Shown here: piece by piece, positions 960-45,052 of the stretch
Position numbering within the stretch: the stretch's first letter is position 1
How the letters are laid out: every line of letters begins with the position of its first letter
From: a virus
IMG/VR virus record: IMGVR_UViG_3300027965_000212
Span: 1 to 64,000 of that record
Strand: one strand, 5' to 3'
Length of the DNA stretch: 64,000 nucleotides
The notes under the pieces: model-generated
Databases searched by the model: none
The model's input: the letters and a program-made list of their open reading frames with translations, nothing else
Told to the model about the DNA's origin: nothing
Position numbers and translations under genes: made by a program

Positions 960-985
960 GCCCGGGAATTTATGTCAGCCGTTGG

Positions 986-1022
986 AAATAAAAAGGGCCG
1001 CGCAGCGGGACGCCACGCGGCC
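986..1022 (-). terminator. Rho-independent terminator, minus strand
   Basis: GGCCGCG at 996-1002 pairs with CGCGGCC at 1016-1022. On the minus strand the stem is followed by CTTTTTATTT. It lies just upstream of the ligase gene and would insulate it from leftward transcription. Confidence 0.6.
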
Positions 1023-1245
1023 GAGTTTATGAGGAAAGAGACCAAGGAGGGTCTCCAGGCACCTTCGAATGAAGGCGCCTCGCATCCTTTGTCGTATGAA
1101 TCAAAAGCCACCGGCCGGGGAGACCGATGGCTCGCTAGACGCAGCCGACGACTTTGGGTCGAAGACTGTAGGGCGGCAATGCCGATTAGCTTTACATGGC
1201 CGTCACTCCTGCCGGGGCTTTGGTGAGCTACACCCTATGCTGAAT

Positions 1246-39172: not shown

Positions 39173-39420
39173 CGATAGTAGGGCCGGATGGCGCGCCGAC
39201 CACGATTGATTCCGAGCTGCCGCTGCAGCAAGCCGATCCACTGCACCAATCCGGCCTTTTCGGCCGGCGTGTAGGTGACGCTCTTGCCTTCGTAGGACAC
39301 TGTCACCGGTTTGCCGCCGGTGACGAGCTGCTGATACGCCATCTGCGCCTCGCTCAGCCATTGCTGCAGCGTCGCGATGGCGACGCCGGAGAGGATCGTT
39401 CTGTTCGGGTCGAAGGTCAT
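39169..39420 (-). CDS. Head-tail joining protein gpW-like
   Basis: An 83-residue protein of the gpW family: LQQWLSEAQMAYQQLVTGGKPVTVSYEGKSVTYTPAEKAGLVQWIGLLQRQLG. gpW stabilises DNA-filled heads and makes the platform for the tail adaptor. Coupled by ATGA to the terminase gene. Confidence 0.9.
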   Translation of the reverse strand: MTFDPNRTILSGVAIATLQQWLSEAQMAYQQLVTGGKPVTVSYEGKSVTYTPAEKAGLVQWIGLLQRQLGINRGRRAIRPYYR

Positions 39421-41345
39421 GCGAGCAGACTTGCGATCGATTTGCGTGTCGGCGGCTTAGGTGGCGGAGCCTTGGGCGCCACGGAAGGCGCGGCGATCAG
39501 ATCCTCGAGATCGAGCTGTCCAGTTTGCAGCGGGGTCTCACGCTCGGCCTCGAGCTTGCCCCAGCCGACGTCGGATAACCCGTAAACGCCAAACTTGAGC
39601 GCGGCGCCGGTTGCCTGGATCAGCGTATCGAGCGCCTCGTTGTCCTGCCGATCGTCCTTCACCCAGCGATAGACTGTGAAGCCACGGTCGCCTTTGCGCT
39701 TGATGGGCACGCGCCGTTCGGCCGTGAGCTCCTGGAAGTATTCATCGTCGAGACCGGAGGGAAACGCGACAAAGCCATTCGCAAGCGGGTCGTCCTTGGC
39801 GAGATCCCGGTAGAGCGCCATCTTCAGGACTGACACGCCCAAATGATAGAACCGGCTGGAATAGCGCAGAACCTTGCCGGTCTTTTCGTTACGCTCCCGC
39901 TTCACCCGAGCGATGCGCGGCGCGCCATCATCGCCGCGGCCGCGCACCATAATCAGCTTCGAGGATGGATGCTTGCGGGCGAAGCTCCAAACATCCTCCG
40001 TCCAGGCGTTACCGTCGATCGCGGCGAGGTCGATGCCGAGGTTGCGGCCGGCGGAGTTGCGCCACTGCTTGCCGAGCAGAGCGCCGAGATTGGCCTGGCA
40101 GTCGGGATCAGAGATGTGGCGATCAATGATCCCATAGTCGACCACGTAGCGGCGATAATCGCGACCGAAGCCGACCAGCTGCCACTCCACGCGATTGACC
40201 TGGCAGTCGATGCCGAGCATCAACAACAATGCGCCGGCCGGAACATTACCGCGAACGTAGTGAGATTCAGCTGCCCGATCGCGCAGCTCTTCCCAAGGCC
40301 GCGCCTCGCCTTGTGCCCGATAGGCCTTGCCGACCGTATCGTTGAGGAACGTCTTTTCGGCGGCCGGGTCGCCGCGCGCGCGCAACCATTCGGCCGCGAT
40401 GCGCGAGAACGATTGCAGATAGGAATACGCGGACCAAATCCAAAACGAGCGATGCTCGCGCCGCGCATTCGGGTTTTTCGCTCGCCACTCGAAGCCGGCG
40501 AGCATCTGCGGCCGATGATGCTCCTCGATCGTCGCGCCGCACGCCACGCAGGTGAAATGCGCGTCCTCCGGCTTCGCCGGATCGAGACTGGCGAGCATGT
40601 TGTCCCATTCCAGCACCTGCATCTCGCCGCAGTGCGGGCATGGGACGTAAGGCATCTCCTGGCTGCCGGCCTCGAAGTTCCGCGTGATGCGGCAGCCCGG
40701 CATGACGAGCGGCGTCGAGATTTTCGCGATCTTGGCGAATTCGATCGCGCGCGAGCGGTTGTCGGCCTGCACCTCCGGATCGCCGGCCGCGTTCATCTCC
40801 CATTTCGCCAGGTCATCCTGCACCTGGCACTGGATCGTGACCTGCGAGAGCGAGGCCGGCGAGTTGGCGCCGCTGATCAGCAGCGTCGCCAGACCATCGC
40901 GCCGTTCCTTGTACATCACGCTGTCGGCGACATCGCGGCTCTTCTGCGGGAAGAGCTCCCGCACCACCGCGGTCGACCGCATCAGCGGAGCGAGCTTCAT
41001 CTTCGACCAGCGCCGCGCGTTATCCTCGGTCGGATGCGCGTAGAGGAAATTCCCCTTCGCCATCGTGATCGACCCGCACGTGAAGATGTTAGCGAGCGTC
41101 GTCTTGCCGATCTGCGCCGAGCCTTGAACGGTCACATAGCGGCACGGATCATCCGGCGACAGCGCCCGCAGGATCTCGTCGAAGTACGGGAAGAGCTTCC
41201 GATTGTACGGGCCCGGGAACGACCCTTCGGTGATGACGACGTTGCGCTCCGCCCAGGCGAGGTAATCGATCGGCGGCGGCGGCTCGAGCGCGACGGCCGC
41301 GGCTTCGGTCGCCAGGCGCTCCACATTGGCGAGCATGATGCCCAT
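39417..41345 (-). CDS. Terminase large subunit (lambda gpA family)
   Basis: A 642-residue protein. ATPase: Walker A GSAQIGKT at residues 75-82, preceded by the conserved YVTVQGS; Walker B-like QVQDDLAKW. A CxxC pair (CPHCGEMQ and CVACGAT) inserted mid-protein and the nuclease aspartate in LLMLGIDCQVNRVEW. It packages concatemers and cuts at cos-type sites. Start ATG overlaps the small-subunit stop (TAATG). Confidence 0.95.
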   Translation of the reverse strand: MGIMLANVERLATEAAAVALEPPPPIDYLAWAERNVVITEGSFPGPYNRKLFPYFDEILRALSPDDPCRYVTVQGSAQIGKTTLANIFTCGSITMAKGNFLYAHPTEDNARRWSKMKLAPLMRSTAVVRELFPQKSRDVADSVMYKERRDGLATLLISGANSPASLSQVTIQCQVQDDLAKWEMNAAGDPEVQADNRSRAIEFAKIAKISTPLVMPGCRITRNFEAGSQEMPYVPCPHCGEMQVLEWDNMLASLDPAKPEDAHFTCVACGATIEEHHRPQMLAGFEWRAKNPNARREHRSFWIWSAYSYLQSFSRIAAEWLRARGDPAAEKTFLNDTVGKAYRAQGEARPWEELRDRAAESHYVRGNVPAGALLLMLGIDCQVNRVEWQLVGFGRDYRRYVVDYGIIDRHISDPDCQANLGALLGKQWRNSAGRNLGIDLAAIDGNAWTEDVWSFARKHPSSKLIMVRGRGDDGAPRIARVKRERNEKTGKVLRYSSRFYHLGVSVLKMALYRDLAKDDPLANGFVAFPSGLDDEYFQELTAERRVPIKRKGDRGFTVYRWVKDDRQDNEALDTLIQATGAALKFGVYGLSDVGWGKLEAERETPLQTGQLDLEDLIAAPSVAPKAPPPKPPTRKSIASLLA

Positions 41346-42022
41346 TACGCTGGCTCGCTTTCTTCCTCCCCTTTCCCCTCGGTCTCGGAGACCTCATCCT
41401 CGATAAGCGCCGGCAGCTCGTCAGCCTCATCGCGCAGCGCGGCAGCCGCATTTGCGCGAAAGAGCCGAAACTCGGAACGGAGAAAGTGCAGCATGTCGCG
41501 CTGCGGAATTGAGAACCTGGCGGAGGCCTTCGCCGATATCTCGGCGAGCCAGCCGTCCAGCATGTTGATGATCCGCGCGAGCGCGCGGCCGATCTGCTTC
41601 TTGACCGCCTCGGTCAACGTGTAGCGGCCGGCGCGAGCCGCCTCCTCTTCCGCCTTCTTGCGGTTGTCGCGCGAGAGGCCCTCGAGGCGGGCAGCCTTGA
41701 TCTGCTCTTCGACCGGATCGGTCCGCGGCTGCGGAGGCGGCAGCGGCAGCGCCGGCGCGGCTGCTTCAGTCGGCTGAGCGGGCGGTCCATCGAGCTTGGT
41801 CGACAGTCCATTGCCGAGACGTTGACCGATATCGAGGTGGCGCCGCAGCTGCGCGCGCGCCACGGCAACCCGTATCTGCGCCGTCCGCCCCTCGCCTACA
41901 ATCGCCTCGCCGTAGACCTTACCTTCCGTGATCCACTGCGTGACGCGGCCAGGCGACACGTTGCAGAGCCGAGCGAACTCCGACTTGGAGGCGATCTCCG
42001 GCTCCGCCGGCTGCTCACTCAT
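41345..42022 (-). CDS. Terminase small subunit, HTH-type
   Basis: A 225-residue protein. The N-terminal winged HTH (KSEFARLCNVSPGRVTQWITEGKV) is of the Nu1-like kind that binds packaging sites. A Pro-rich linker and a helical C-terminus (AGRYTLTEAVKKQIGRALARIINMLDGWLAEI) likely bind the large subunit. Tandem GCCTAAA-type repeats lie immediately upstream of its start. Confidence 0.85.
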   Translation of the reverse strand: MSEQPAEPEIASKSEFARLCNVSPGRVTQWITEGKVYGEAIVGEGRTAQIRVAVARAQLRRHLDIGQRLGNGLSTKLDGPPAQPTEAAAPALPLPPPQPRTDPVEEQIKAARLEGLSRDNRKKAEEEAARAGRYTLTEAVKKQIGRALARIINMLDGWLAEISAKASARFSIPQRDMLHFLRSEFRLFRANAAAALRDEADELPALIEDEVSETEGKGEEESEPA

Positions 42023-42036
42023 CCCGCCCCGCGCAT

Positions 42037-42079
42037 TTTTAGCGAGCCTTTTAGCCGCCTTTAGGCAAGCTCTTTAGGC
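42037..42079. repeat. Tandem GCYTAAA repeats upstream of terminase
   Basis: Four 7-base units, read on the plus strand as TTTTAGC (42037), TTTTAGC (42049), TTTAGGC (42060) and TTTAGGC (42073), spaced 11-13 bases, close to one helical turn. They lie 15-57 bases in front of the small terminase gene. Candidate binding site for the small terminase or a late activator. Confidence 0.45.
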
Positions 42080-42193
42080 TACGAAAATGCGCTCTGACTG
42101 CGAGTTACCCTCGCTCGCGCGTAGCCCGTGGATGGAGGGTCCATAGGAAGGACCCAAAGAGGTGGAGGAGGTGCCGAGGGGGCGCCCTCGACG

Positions 42194-42799
42194 TCAGGCC
42201 TTGAGCCGTCGGGTCGCAAGCGCCTTGGACAAGGCAGCGGGAAACGAGGTGCGAAGCTCAACCAGCATGTCGTGACGGAAGTCGGCTTCGAAGGGAACGT
42301 CAGCCGGCTGATTGGCACGCGGTGCGAACGCATACATCAGGTGCAGGCGACCGCCCTTGCCTACATAGATGCCCTTCGGTGTGATCCGGAGGGCGCGCTT
42401 GGGCGTGTTGACCACGATCGCATGCGGCTTCTGGTTCTTGCGCACCGCGCCTGATGCCATACGACTGACCGCACCTGGTGGCGGAATGGCGAGGCGCCCG
42501 CGCGCCTGCTTGGTGCCGCCTGCATCATGAAGCTTGAGATGCGCCCGGCCGAGGCTATCGTAGATCTCGATCCGGAGGTTGCGCTTGTTGGCGAAATTGG
42601 TGCGCAAAGCACGCGAGATGAAGCCCTGGTTACGCTGCGTCACATGGCTTGGCCATGTGCCTTGCACCAAGGCTTGCCGTGTGTTCTTGGCCGCCTGGTT
42701 CATGGCGAGCGCAAGCGCGTACGGCACCTGGTCGATCTGGGCGTGTAATTCCTTTGCGCGAAGCTCGAAATCCCGGGTATCGATCACAAGGTCGATCAT
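42194..42799 (-). CDS. Prophage minor tail protein Z-like
   Basis: A 201-residue protein starting MIDLVIDTRDFELRAKEL. The pattern ALALAMNQAAKNTRQALVQGTWPSHVTQRNQGFISRALR and PPGAVSRMASGAVRK matches the phage tail Z or minor tail group. I chose ATG at 42799 with AGGGG upstream. It sits apart from the other tail genes, in front of the terminase genes and just after a terminator. Confidence 0.65.
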   Translation of the reverse strand: MIDLVIDTRDFELRAKELHAQIDQVPYALALAMNQAAKNTRQALVQGTWPSHVTQRNQGFISRALRTNFANKRNLRIEIYDSLGRAHLKLHDAGGTKQARGRLAIPPPGAVSRMASGAVRKNQKPHAIVVNTPKRALRITPKGIYVGKGGRLHLMYAFAPRANQPADVPFEADFRHDMLVELRTSFPAALSKALATRRLKA

Positions 42800-42815
42800 C
42801 AGGTTCCAGCCCCTA

Positions 42816-42850
42816 TAAAACACAAAACCCCGCGCACGTGAGTGGCGGGG
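42816..42850 (-). terminator. Rho-independent terminator after NusG-like gene
   Basis: CCCCGC at 42828-42833 pairs with GCGGGG at 42845-42850. On the minus strand the stem is followed by TTTTGTGTTTTA. It separates the replication/early block from the head genes. Confidence 0.7.
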
Positions 42851-42865
42851 CCTGTAAGCGGCAGC

Positions 42866-42883
42866 ACGGGGATATTTCCCCGT
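42866..42883. promoter_or_regulatory. Perfect stem-loop next to NusG-like gene
   Basis: ACGGGGA-TATT-TCCCCGT, a seven-base-pair stem with a tetraloop, 34 bases past the NusG-like stop and 16 bases before the terminator on the minus strand. No T-run follows. Candidate RNA recognition element for antitermination. Confidence 0.45.
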
Positions 42884-42916
42884 TGTTGTGGCGTTTCCGC
42901 CGTCGCGCGCTTTGAC

Positions 42917-43627
42917 CTAAGAGGCCGGATCGCCGGCTATCCGTCGGCTACATCGCGTGAGCTCGGACGCTGGTACCCAAACTCTGATAACGCGCCCGAA
43001 CAACTTCGTTACCTCAACACCGATTCTCGATTCATTTGCAACCTTGAAAACCTTCCCGCTCCCCAGAAACTCGGCATTACCGCGATCCCTGAATTCGACT
43101 TCGTCACCGATCTCGAGCGGTCCCACGTCCGGATCGGGCGGAGGGGGCAGATTGAGCTGCGCCTCGATCTTGCGGATGCGCTCGATGTCATCTTGCCGAA
43201 GCACCGCTGGCAAACCCTTGGAGCTACGAATGAAGTCACGAACACCGGCCCATTTCATCACTGGATCACGGTGCTGAATATTCATGATCCGAGTGGGGGC
43301 GAACATCAGGCCGGGCATGATGGGCCAAAGCCGATGAGATGTCTTCGTGGTATTGAGACCGGAAATGGCCTGCTTCGAAAAGACGGGAAGATAGATCAGC
43401 ACATTTAGATTGATCAGTCGCTCGGCTGCCTTGATTTCACGGTTTGGCGACACGATCAAGGCGTGCCACTCCCGAAATGCCTCCCAGGGCGTGACCTCTT
43501 CGGGCTGGATCAGATCGGCGAAGTGCGTATCGAGCTTTTTCGATCGCCAGTCGTCGCCCCACTCAGCCCGCGCGCGCTCTTCGGCGAGACGAACCGCGTC
43601 CGGATTGAGCTTGTCGTTTGCGAGCAT
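42917..43627 (-). CDS. NusG-like transcription factor, putative late antiterminator
   Basis: A 236-residue protein. The N-terminal part (EWHALIVSPNREIKAAERLINLNVLIYLPVFSKQ...HRLWPIMPGLMFAPT) has the NGN domain pattern of NusG/RfaH. The C-terminal part (LEIGDEVEFRD...LGSGKVFKVANESRIGVEVTKLFGRVIRVWVPASEL) is a KOW domain. Both contact RNA polymerase in relatives and suppress pausing or termination. Its place directly before a terminator and ahead of the head genes suggests control of late transcription. Confidence 0.75.
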   Translation of the reverse strand: MLANDKLNPDAVRLAEERARAEWGDDWRSKKLDTHFADLIQPEEVTPWEAFREWHALIVSPNREIKAAERLINLNVLIYLPVFSKQAISGLNTTKTSHRLWPIMPGLMFAPTRIMNIQHRDPVMKWAGVRDFIRSSKGLPAVLRQDDIERIRKIEAQLNLPPPPDPDVGPLEIGDEVEFRDRGNAEFLGSGKVFKVANESRIGVEVTKLFGRVIRVWVPASELTRCSRRIAGDPAS

Positions 43628-43634
43628 CGGTCAC

Positions 43635-44816
43635 CTATTTGAATTCGGCCAAATCTTCAGCGGTGCAGAGCGTTTTTGCGTCGGCTGGCGGCCCGGTCGA
43701 CACGCCGCCGTCCTTGCGCGGCGGCCATGGCCAAGGCGCCTCGATCGCATCGAACTGCCGCAAGTTTGTGAGATGCGCGCGCAGGAAATCCCGCCATGCT
43801 GCGAAGTTCGGCGAGCCGATGCGATAGATCGCGCCCTCGGCCGGCGCGGATGCGAGCGCGAGCAGCTGCGGCGTGATCGGCCGCGTATAGATCAACCGCC
43901 CGTCGCCCATCCGCGGCAAGCTCGTTTGGCCGATCCGCGCCAGCGCCTGCAGCGCTCGGCCGGCCTCGCTCGCAAGACCGTACGGGCCACCGATGCCGGC
44001 TTCCGGCGCGGGCGAAGCCATCAGCCCTTCCCAGACGCGCTTGCGGATGAAAAGGTGCGCTTTCATCGGCTTTTCGCGCCGACGCAGGCAGCGCGCTGCG
44101 AATACCGGCACACCGGCGACGCAAGCCTTCTGATCGGCAGCCGACAGCGCAGCAAAACTCTCTTGCGCCGCGATCAGGTCGACAATCCCGTCCGGATAGC
44201 CCGCCTTGAATTCCCTGAAACGCTCCTCGGTTCCATCAACACCCCCCGGAGGGGGGTTTGGGGGGAGAATCTTAGGTTCAGGTTCAGAGATTAGGCCCTG
44301 CACGCAGGTGAAGGGCAAATGCACCCCTAATGCAGGGTCAGCTGAATTTGACCCCTCACCGCGTGCAGGGTCAGATGCATCGCGCCCCGCAGGCGCTAAC
44401 CCCTCACCGCGTGCAGGGCTAAATTCCCCCCTATCCCCCTCGCCGGCGCCGCTCGCGCGCGCCTCGATTTCATCCGGATCGGCATTGATCATCAGCCGGA
44501 TTTCGTCGGTCGTGCGGCGCCCGCGGCCATCGCCATTGCGGCGGCCGACCTCATCGATCCACTGCGGCGCGCGCGCGATCGCACCGATCTCCTCGAGGAA
44601 GGAAAGTCGCCTGCGTACCGTGTTCTCGACGAGCTCGCAGTCTTCAGCGAGGTGCGAGATCGAGACAAAGCACGCGCCCTCGCCATTGACGTAGCCGGTG
44701 AGCATGCACAGGACGAACTTGGCGTGCGGATTGCCGATCCGCAGGTTGCGCGCCCAGGCGTGCGCCTCGTCGGCGGCAATGCGGCGCGGCCGGCGCCGTC
44801 TGTCAATCTCAGCCAT
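43635..44816 (-). CDS. Replication initiator-like HTH protein
   Basis: A 393-residue protein. Residues about 15-75 form a winged HTH (HAKFVLCMLTGYVNGEGACFVSISHLAEDCELVENTVRRRLSFLEEIGAI) as in phage replication-initiation proteins (O-like N-termini). A Gly/Pro-rich linker (residues about 150-215) with repeated SPARGEG units is encoded by the iteron-like DNA repeats. The C-terminal half is helical without a known family. Function by architecture and position at the end of the replication block. Confidence 0.65.
   Translation of the reverse strand: MAEIDRRRRPRRIAADEAHAWARNLRIGNPHAKFVLCMLTGYVNGEGACFVSISHLAEDCELVENTVRRRLSFLEEIGAIARAPQWIDEVGRRNGDGRGRRTTDEIRLMINADPDEIEARASGAGEGDRGEFSPARGEGLAPAGRDASDPARGEGSNSADPALGVHLPFTCVQGLISEPEPKILPPNPPPGGVDGTEERFREFKAGYPDGIVDLIAAQESFAALSAADQKACVAGVPVFAARCLRRREKPMKAHLFIRKRVWEGLMASPAPEAGIGGPYGLASEAGRALQALARIGQTSLPRMGDGRLIYTRPITPQLLALASAPAEGAIYRIGSPNFAAWRDFLRAHLTNLRQFDAIEAPWPWPPRKDGGVSTGPPADAKTLCTAEDLAEFK
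44295..44421. other. Iteron-like repeats, candidate replication origin
   Basis: Direct copies at 44351-44373 and 44399-44421 (ACCCCTCACCGCGTGCAGGG plus 3 bases; 48-bp period), a shortened copy at 44323-44340 and an inverted copy at 44295-44315. All lie inside the linker of the initiator-like gene, as lambda ori lies in gene O. The interspersed AATT-containing stretches could be unwinding elements. Confidence 0.5.
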
Positions 44817-44818
44817 GG

Positions 44819-45052
44819 TCACGGAACGGTCTCCTCGGCCGCGGCCAGACAGGGCGGCGTGTTTGTCAGCGGAATGCTCGCGCCGTTGCGGTGCCGCCAT
44901 TCGCGCCACGGCAGGCCGTGCGGCGGATGCATGGTGATCTTGACCAGCCCGCAGTGCGCGCAGGTGCGCTCGGTCCGATCGGGAAGCCGCACCGGCTCGC
45001 CCCAGCGATGGCGCGGCTCGACGGCAGGCGAAGCTGTCTTTTCCACGGTCAT
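44819..45052 (-). CDS. Small zinc-finger-like protein
   Basis: A 77-residue protein with CAHCGLVKITMHPPHG (residues 31-46), a single CxxC plus His pattern, and a following REWRH motif. It recurs as a short unknown protein near replication genes of rhizobial phages, in my recollection. Its start overlaps the upstream stop (ATGA). Confidence 0.6.
   Translation of the reverse strand: MTVEKTASPAVEPRHRWGEPVRLPDRTERTCAHCGLVKITMHPPHGLPWREWRHRNGASIPLTNTPPCLAAAEETVP

Follow-up and report, generated by a model that had tools for sequence, protein, structure and literature searches.

A phage NusG paralogue and conserved RNA hairpins ahead of the late genes suggest an antitermination switch in temperate phages of Alphaproteobacteria

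To our knowledge, the way in which late genes are switched on in most phages outside the well-studied models is largely unknown. The window analysed here, 64 kb out of a 66.3-kb viral record, raises this question in a particular form, as a gene for a NusG-like protein stands directly ahead of the late region and is followed by a stem-loop and a terminator. The first-pass annotation of this DNA had suggested that the phage uses its own NusG paralogue to read through into the late genes with the stem-loop as recognition site, and had called such a layout uncommon. Here, we asked whether protein, gene order and RNA are consistent with this suggestion, and what else might account for them.

Between about 61 kb and about 1.7 kb, nearly all genes of the window are located on the minus strand (Table 1). 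Portal and capsid genes lie downstream of terL on the same strand, and a contractile-tail sheath gene is also present, so that the head and tail genes do follow just beyond the NusG gene in its own direction, as first described. The NusG gene is the last early-type gene, since replication-type genes precede it and the neck/tail, terS, terL, portal and capsid genes come after it. No sigma-70-like promoter was found on the minus strand between 41 and 46 kb by a scan that is blind to alphaproteobacterial and activator-dependent promoters; because it covers the sigma-70-like type only, it leaves room for a late promoter.

Table 1. Features of the window and of related phage loci (L numbers denote related loci).
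Feature	Position	Strand	Remarks
DNA methyltransferases and helicases		-	upstream part of the minus-strand series, before the replication-initiator-like gene
Replication-initiator-like HTH protein	43635..44909	-	adjoins the NusG gene on its upstream side; Pfam/PHROG-type profiles
Phage NusG paralogue (NGN + KOW)	42917..43627	-	236 aa; final gene ahead of the late region
Whole HP1-HP2 element	42863..42911	-	hold-out covariance model R1, 28.3 bits, E 7.8e-6
HP1	42890..42901	-	hairpin GGCG-GAAA-CGCC; conserved and covarying in 11 relatives
HP2	42866..42883	-	stem-loop ACGGGGA-AATA-TCCCCGT; perfect 7-bp stem, tetraloop, -11.1 kcal/mol; covaries
GTGCTGCCGCT box after HP2	42857..42867	-	lies in a 14-mer that L095, the closest relative, shares without change
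Intrinsic terminator T1	42824..42850 (core 42828-42850)	-	9-bp stem, one bulge, -15.3 kcal/mol, then TTTT / TTTTGTGTTTT
TATAGGGG	42810..42817	-	YATAGGGTATG motif as it occurs in the window; ATAGGG lies 11 nt from the T-run start
Alternative start of the first late gene	42799-42823	-	in-frame GTG within the terminator tail; ATG at 42799 likelier
First late gene, neck/minor-tail-like	42194..42799	-	phrog_1924
Candidate cos site	42023-42193	-	ahead of terS; GGGTCCTTCC, then repeated GCCTAAA/GCTAAA as candidate terminase-binding repeats; common to several relatives
Terminase small subunit (terS)	41345..42022	-	phrog_57
Terminase large subunit (terL), GpA type	39417..41345	-	profile matches
Weak mmgR-like RNA	981-1059	-	22.3 bits, below cut-off
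mmgR/suhB-family RNA loci	L034:495-571, L030:4575-4653, L007:8474-8553, L002:53-136, L044:9006-9107
GCCAC-repeat loci	L032, L033, L144, L138, L124, L140		one NusG clade

The 236-aa protein matched the Pfam NusG family PF02357, which represents the NGN domain, above the cut-off (E = 1.3e-9), and its residues 53-223 aligned with positions 14-176 of the 179 positions of phrog_6386, annotated as 'transcription antiterminator' (E = 4.7e-11). The AlphaFold model (pLDDT 80) contains an NGN domain and a KOW barrel with the KOW strands at residues 176-225; at the sequence level, the window protein has a degenerate KOW signature. In a PDB profile search, the A6 profile spans the NusG CTD, and the best match was E. 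coli NusG (1e-35), with RfaH at 1e-13 and the 'NusG-RNA complex' 8f5g, which we take to be LoaP, at 1e-11. Foldseek returned structural matches to NusG and RfaH. With both the NGN domain and a KOW beta-barrel as C-terminal domain present in the predicted structure, the window protein belongs to the NusG/Spt5 family.

When the exact window NusG sequence was used as query, no relatives were found in the viral, genome or phage collections; the relatives described here were reached via NusG alignments and the terminase and are mostly metagenomic fragments. The terminase search yielded 80 phage loci, and 12 records, including phi2LM21, carried a NusG gene as recognised by Pfam, just upstream of the late genes. 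Further searches with NusG alignments brought the set to 67 distinct phage NusG loci in which the downstream DNA was of sufficient length. A NusG-alignment search in 385 alphaproteobacterial genomes returned mainly probable housekeeping NusG genes and was set aside. For about 29 of the 40 loci found independently by NusG alone, a large terminase was located within about 4 kb downstream; these terminases belong to several Pfam families (TerL_ATPase, 13; GpA, 8; Terminase_3, 5; Terminase_6, 3-4), and the NusG position has therefore been kept across terminase families. The order of replication protein, NusG, a gap with a terminator and late genes was found in phi2LM21 and in many IMG/VR phages. 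With dozens of phages sharing it, including the published Sinorhizobium phage phi2LM21, the layout is not uncommon, contrary to the first description.

The gap that separates the NusG stop at 42917 from the start of the first late gene at 42799 contains, from 5' to 3', the hairpins HP1 and HP2, the terminator T1 and TATAGGGG. An NGN-KOW gene followed by a 7-bp stem with tetraloop had been claimed before, and Pfam, PHROG and AlphaFold results for the protein and the HP2 sequence itself agree with it. The terminator with its T-run was likewise found where expected, as a 9-bp stem with one bulge, at a distance of 15 bases from the stem-loop instead of the 16 given. HP1 is absent from the earlier description.

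Considered in the window alone, HP2 is borderline, as 113 of 2000 shuffles of the 116-nt gap that preserved dinucleotides also contained a perfect stem of 7 bp or longer, and GC-rich DNA readily forms hairpins. This speaks for the reading that the stem-loop is due to chance, or a structural part of a tandem terminator or a stabiliser of the 3' end, and takes no part in NusG recruitment. Comparison with other phages gave a different picture. In 11 relatives, the NusG proteins of which fall into one clade with that of the window, two hairpins occur at the same place with differing stem sequences and the pairing kept. The HP2 stems comprise ACGGGGA/TCCCCGT, CGGATGCT/AGCATCCG, ACGAGC/GCTCGT, GGCGAT/ATCGCC and others, and their inner pairs were paired in 45 of 45 cases, against a mean of 20.9 with the arms shuffled. 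HP1, the conservation of which is at least equal to that of HP2, lies in the conserved frame RACGGCG...CGYYWCA within this clade, with HP2 beginning 4-7 nt later. The loops vary among the relatives and are GAAA (HP1) and AAUA (HP2) in the window.

Since the HP2 arms had been picked by eye before the model test, two controls were performed. First, the frequency with which shuffled sequence at the HP2 position gives stems equally long corresponded to a Fisher combined p of 3e-6 over nine loci. Second, a covariance model was built from nine relatives with the window left out, and the window was searched with filters off; the best match in the 64 kb was the gap with 28.3 bits, the runner-up reaching 15.8. 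The same model also recovered L100 and L102, both outside the training set, and nothing else with E <0.03 in 478 kb. On the model-fitted alignment, where pair counts are biased toward structure, the covariation score was 0.487 compared to 0.208 for shuffled alignments (0/500 as high) and at most 0.150 with the partners slid. Thus, HP2 is a conserved RNA hairpin as judged by comparison among phages rather than from the window alone. The covariation with its hold-out confirmation, the conserved flanks of HP1 and the match of RNA type to NusG clade described below make the chance or purely structural reading most improbable. No match above the Rfam gathering score was obtained in the window gap, nor in the phi2LM21-type and L095/L097 loci. 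Three loci (L007:7722-8081, L100:5518-5883, L105:466-870) carry a small GcrA-like gene between NusG and the terminator; it was seen by eye (LW..SA..IA..GTTRNAVIGR) and resembles the cell-cycle regulator family of Caulobacter.

Other NusG clades are accompanied by other sequences. The phi2LM21 clade carries a different RNA of approximately 190 nt with 35 pairs, 15 of which show compensatory changes on both sides, and a covariation of 0.368 compared to 0.153. In a third clade, the NusG stop is immediately followed by GCCACCC/GCCACGC units that are repeated in tandem about every 14 nt. In the NusG tree, in which the window protein groups with that of L095 (support 99/95), each of the three RNA types corresponds to one clade, requiring two changes in total, which is the minimum, compared to 12.4 with shuffled labels. 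The claim of a NusG gene at the early/late border with a stem-loop element is therefore retained, as the element is conserved and follows the NusG clade, but in the form of HP1 and HP2 together instead of a single stem-loop. As adjacent DNA is co-inherited, the match of RNA type and NusG clade could partly reflect kinship, and the tree by itself would not prove recognition of the RNA by the protein. The GTGCTGCCGCT box resembles the invariant GTGC-N4-GCTATG of the phi2LM21-type RNA; a general GTGC..GC box before T1 was rejected, as it occurs at chance level outside the phi2LM21 clade (8/28 compared to 4.7 +/- 1.8), and a scan with the CAAAGCGC pattern gave, beyond the known loci, only chance matches in coding sequence. 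At L154:5740-5830, an insertion that resembles a tRNA 3' end (GTTCGAATCCTGTCGCCGCAACCA) separates the conserved RNA from the terminator.

In 27 of the 67 loci, a terminator was found no more than 300 nt from the NusG stop, compared to 12 of 361 control stops, by a scan that detects T1 in only part of the loci; in the window a simple terminator scan missed T1 because of the bulged base. Of 45 gap terminators, 22 were followed by a YATAGGGTATG-like motif at 10-13 nt from where the T-run begins, compared to 4 of 329 elsewhere, the pattern having been written after seeing examples; in NusG-less loci the count was 3 of 283. An exact terminator-plus-motif scan of 2.9 million viral contigs yielded nine matches, eight of them with a hairpin, and a NusG gene is present upstream in all six hairpin-bearing matches for which sufficient upstream DNA is available. 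When about 85,000 bacterial and archaeal genomes were scanned with the same pattern, eight matches appeared, none of them with the hairpin. A de novo 12-mer search also returned the terminator tail, with a score no higher than that of a coding control, and for this reason the motif claim rests on the exact-pattern scans and the terminator counts.

As a guess, this motif may be a pause site or a second loading site, or it may be part of a promoter. According to one alternative, the late genes use their own promoter, perhaps with YATAGGGTATG in an activator-dependent promoter, T1 merely ends the early operon, and NusG works elsewhere, for example against Rho on every transcript of the phage. The position of the motif right after terminators, as for an insulated promoter, its occurrence ahead of mmgR-like small RNAs, which would need a promoter, and a second copy near the late-region end of the window are in line with this, whereas the tight spacing of 10-13 nt from the T-run is unneeded by a promoter, and neither a -35-like partner nor a sigma-70 match was found. 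As it also leaves the covariation and the NusG-clade match of the RNA hairpins upstream of T1 unexplained, we consider an own promoter of this kind unlikely. In several relatives, an mmgR/suhB-family small RNA (RF00519, above the gathering score) with anti-Shine-Dalgarno CCUCC motifs follows the NusG-gap terminator and precedes the late genes. Near the late-region end of the window there are three tandem terminators, the first of which is followed by CATAGGGTGTAG at 1239, and the weak mmgR-like RNA of Table 1 lies behind them.

The closest precedent is LoaP of Bacillus velezensis, a NusG paralogue adjoining its target operon, where the dfn leader hairpin and an intrinsic terminator precede a long operon; read-through has been obtained in a reconstituted in vitro system with the leader hairpin and the NusA-dependent intrinsic terminator (PMC12691694). 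Here too, a NusG paralogue, leader hairpins (HP1-HP2), the intrinsic terminator T1 and a long operon occur together. LoaP, however, is a non-phage protein and binds one hairpin with a UNCG loop, whereas two covarying hairpins without UNCG loop are present here, and the profile of the window protein is nearer to E. coli NusG than to 8f5g. RfaH is likewise a specialised NusG paralogue that renders long operons readable, and recognises the DNA element ops, GGCGGTAGnnTG. Inspection of the gap (42810-42920) did not reveal this element, and the modelled CTD of the window protein is a KOW barrel, not an alpha-hairpin. A candidate ops in some relatives, GCGGTAGCG, was rejected because it falls in the 5' hairpin just before the mmgR-family small RNA.

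Lambda Q, phage 21 Q and AlpA resemble the proposed switch in that a factor made early carries polymerase through a terminator and on into the late genes. The loading site of Q-type factors is a promoter-proximal DNA element; in the window, by contrast, an RNA element lies behind the NusG gene, with no recognised promoter. Regarding lambda N and nut, boxA (CGCTCTTTA) was absent from the gap on inspection, and the protein is of the NGN-KOW type and not an N-type arginine-rich peptide. In Alphaproteobacteria, antitermination ahead of phage-like structural genes is represented by GafZ, which opens the structural cluster of the Caulobacter gene transfer agent (PMC11150451) but is unrelated and presumably loads at a promoter element. 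The NusG of phi2LM21 (MF614627, ATE84644), annotated as 'transcription antitermination protein', shares gene order and position with that of the window and differs in NusG clade and RNA type; the phi2LM21 paper (PMC5537653) nowhere mentions antitermination or NusG. Among open-licence PMC papers, we found no published account of the RNAs, the switch or phage NusG paralogues in late control.

Taken by analogy with LoaP and Q, the locus probably represents an early-to-late switch, in which the phage NusG would be loaded via its cognate nascent RNA and read through the terminator. Early transcription would cross the replication genes and the NusG gene and halt at T1 until enough phage NusG has accumulated to be recruited to the elongating host RNA polymerase via HP1-HP2 in the nascent RNA; NusG would then stay bound, and polymerase would continue through T1 into the long late operon. 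The steps we infer are the binding of the RNA, loading, read-through and timing. We favour this switch because of the NGN-KOW fold, the conserved gene order and the enriched terminators, because HP1-HP2 and the phi2LM21-type RNA covary and the RNA types follow the NusG clades, and because the terminator-plus-motif is tied to NusG loci, a sigma-70-like promoter is absent from 41-46 kb and LoaP provides a precedent. On the other side, the HP2 loop AAUA differs from the UNCG type bound by LoaP, and the target of the RNA could be the NusG message itself.

The latter point leads to the reading of the RNA as an autoregulatory or terminator-strengthening device, with NusG acting on its own 3' region to promote stopping at T1 or controlling its own message. 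The RNA is indeed located directly behind the NusG gene and before T1, housekeeping NusG promotes intrinsic termination in some bacteria, e.g. B. subtilis (PMC8060035), and NusG proteins can act in both directions. In L100, though, a separate gene parts NusG from the element, which still adjoins T1, and in most loci late genes follow, so that blocking them as NusG accumulates would halt the lytic cycle; we therefore regard a device of this kind as very unlikely.

Beyond this window, we lean towards the existence, in temperate phages of Alphaproteobacteria, of a further type of control over late genes, in addition to N, Q and put, in which a clade-specific NusG and a co-evolved nascent-RNA element would carry polymerase past a terminator at the early/late border. 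For a large group of soil and rhizobial phages, the analysis offers a defined switch that can be put to the test. It also adds new structured RNAs that are not represented in Rfam, and the at least three NusG/RNA pairs offer material on how a NusG paralogue acquires its target. The roles of NusG paralogues have so far mostly concerned cell-envelope and antibiotic operons (PMC7819879). If the switch holds true, they would extend to phage development, with the phage NusG serving the purpose of lambda Q by another route.
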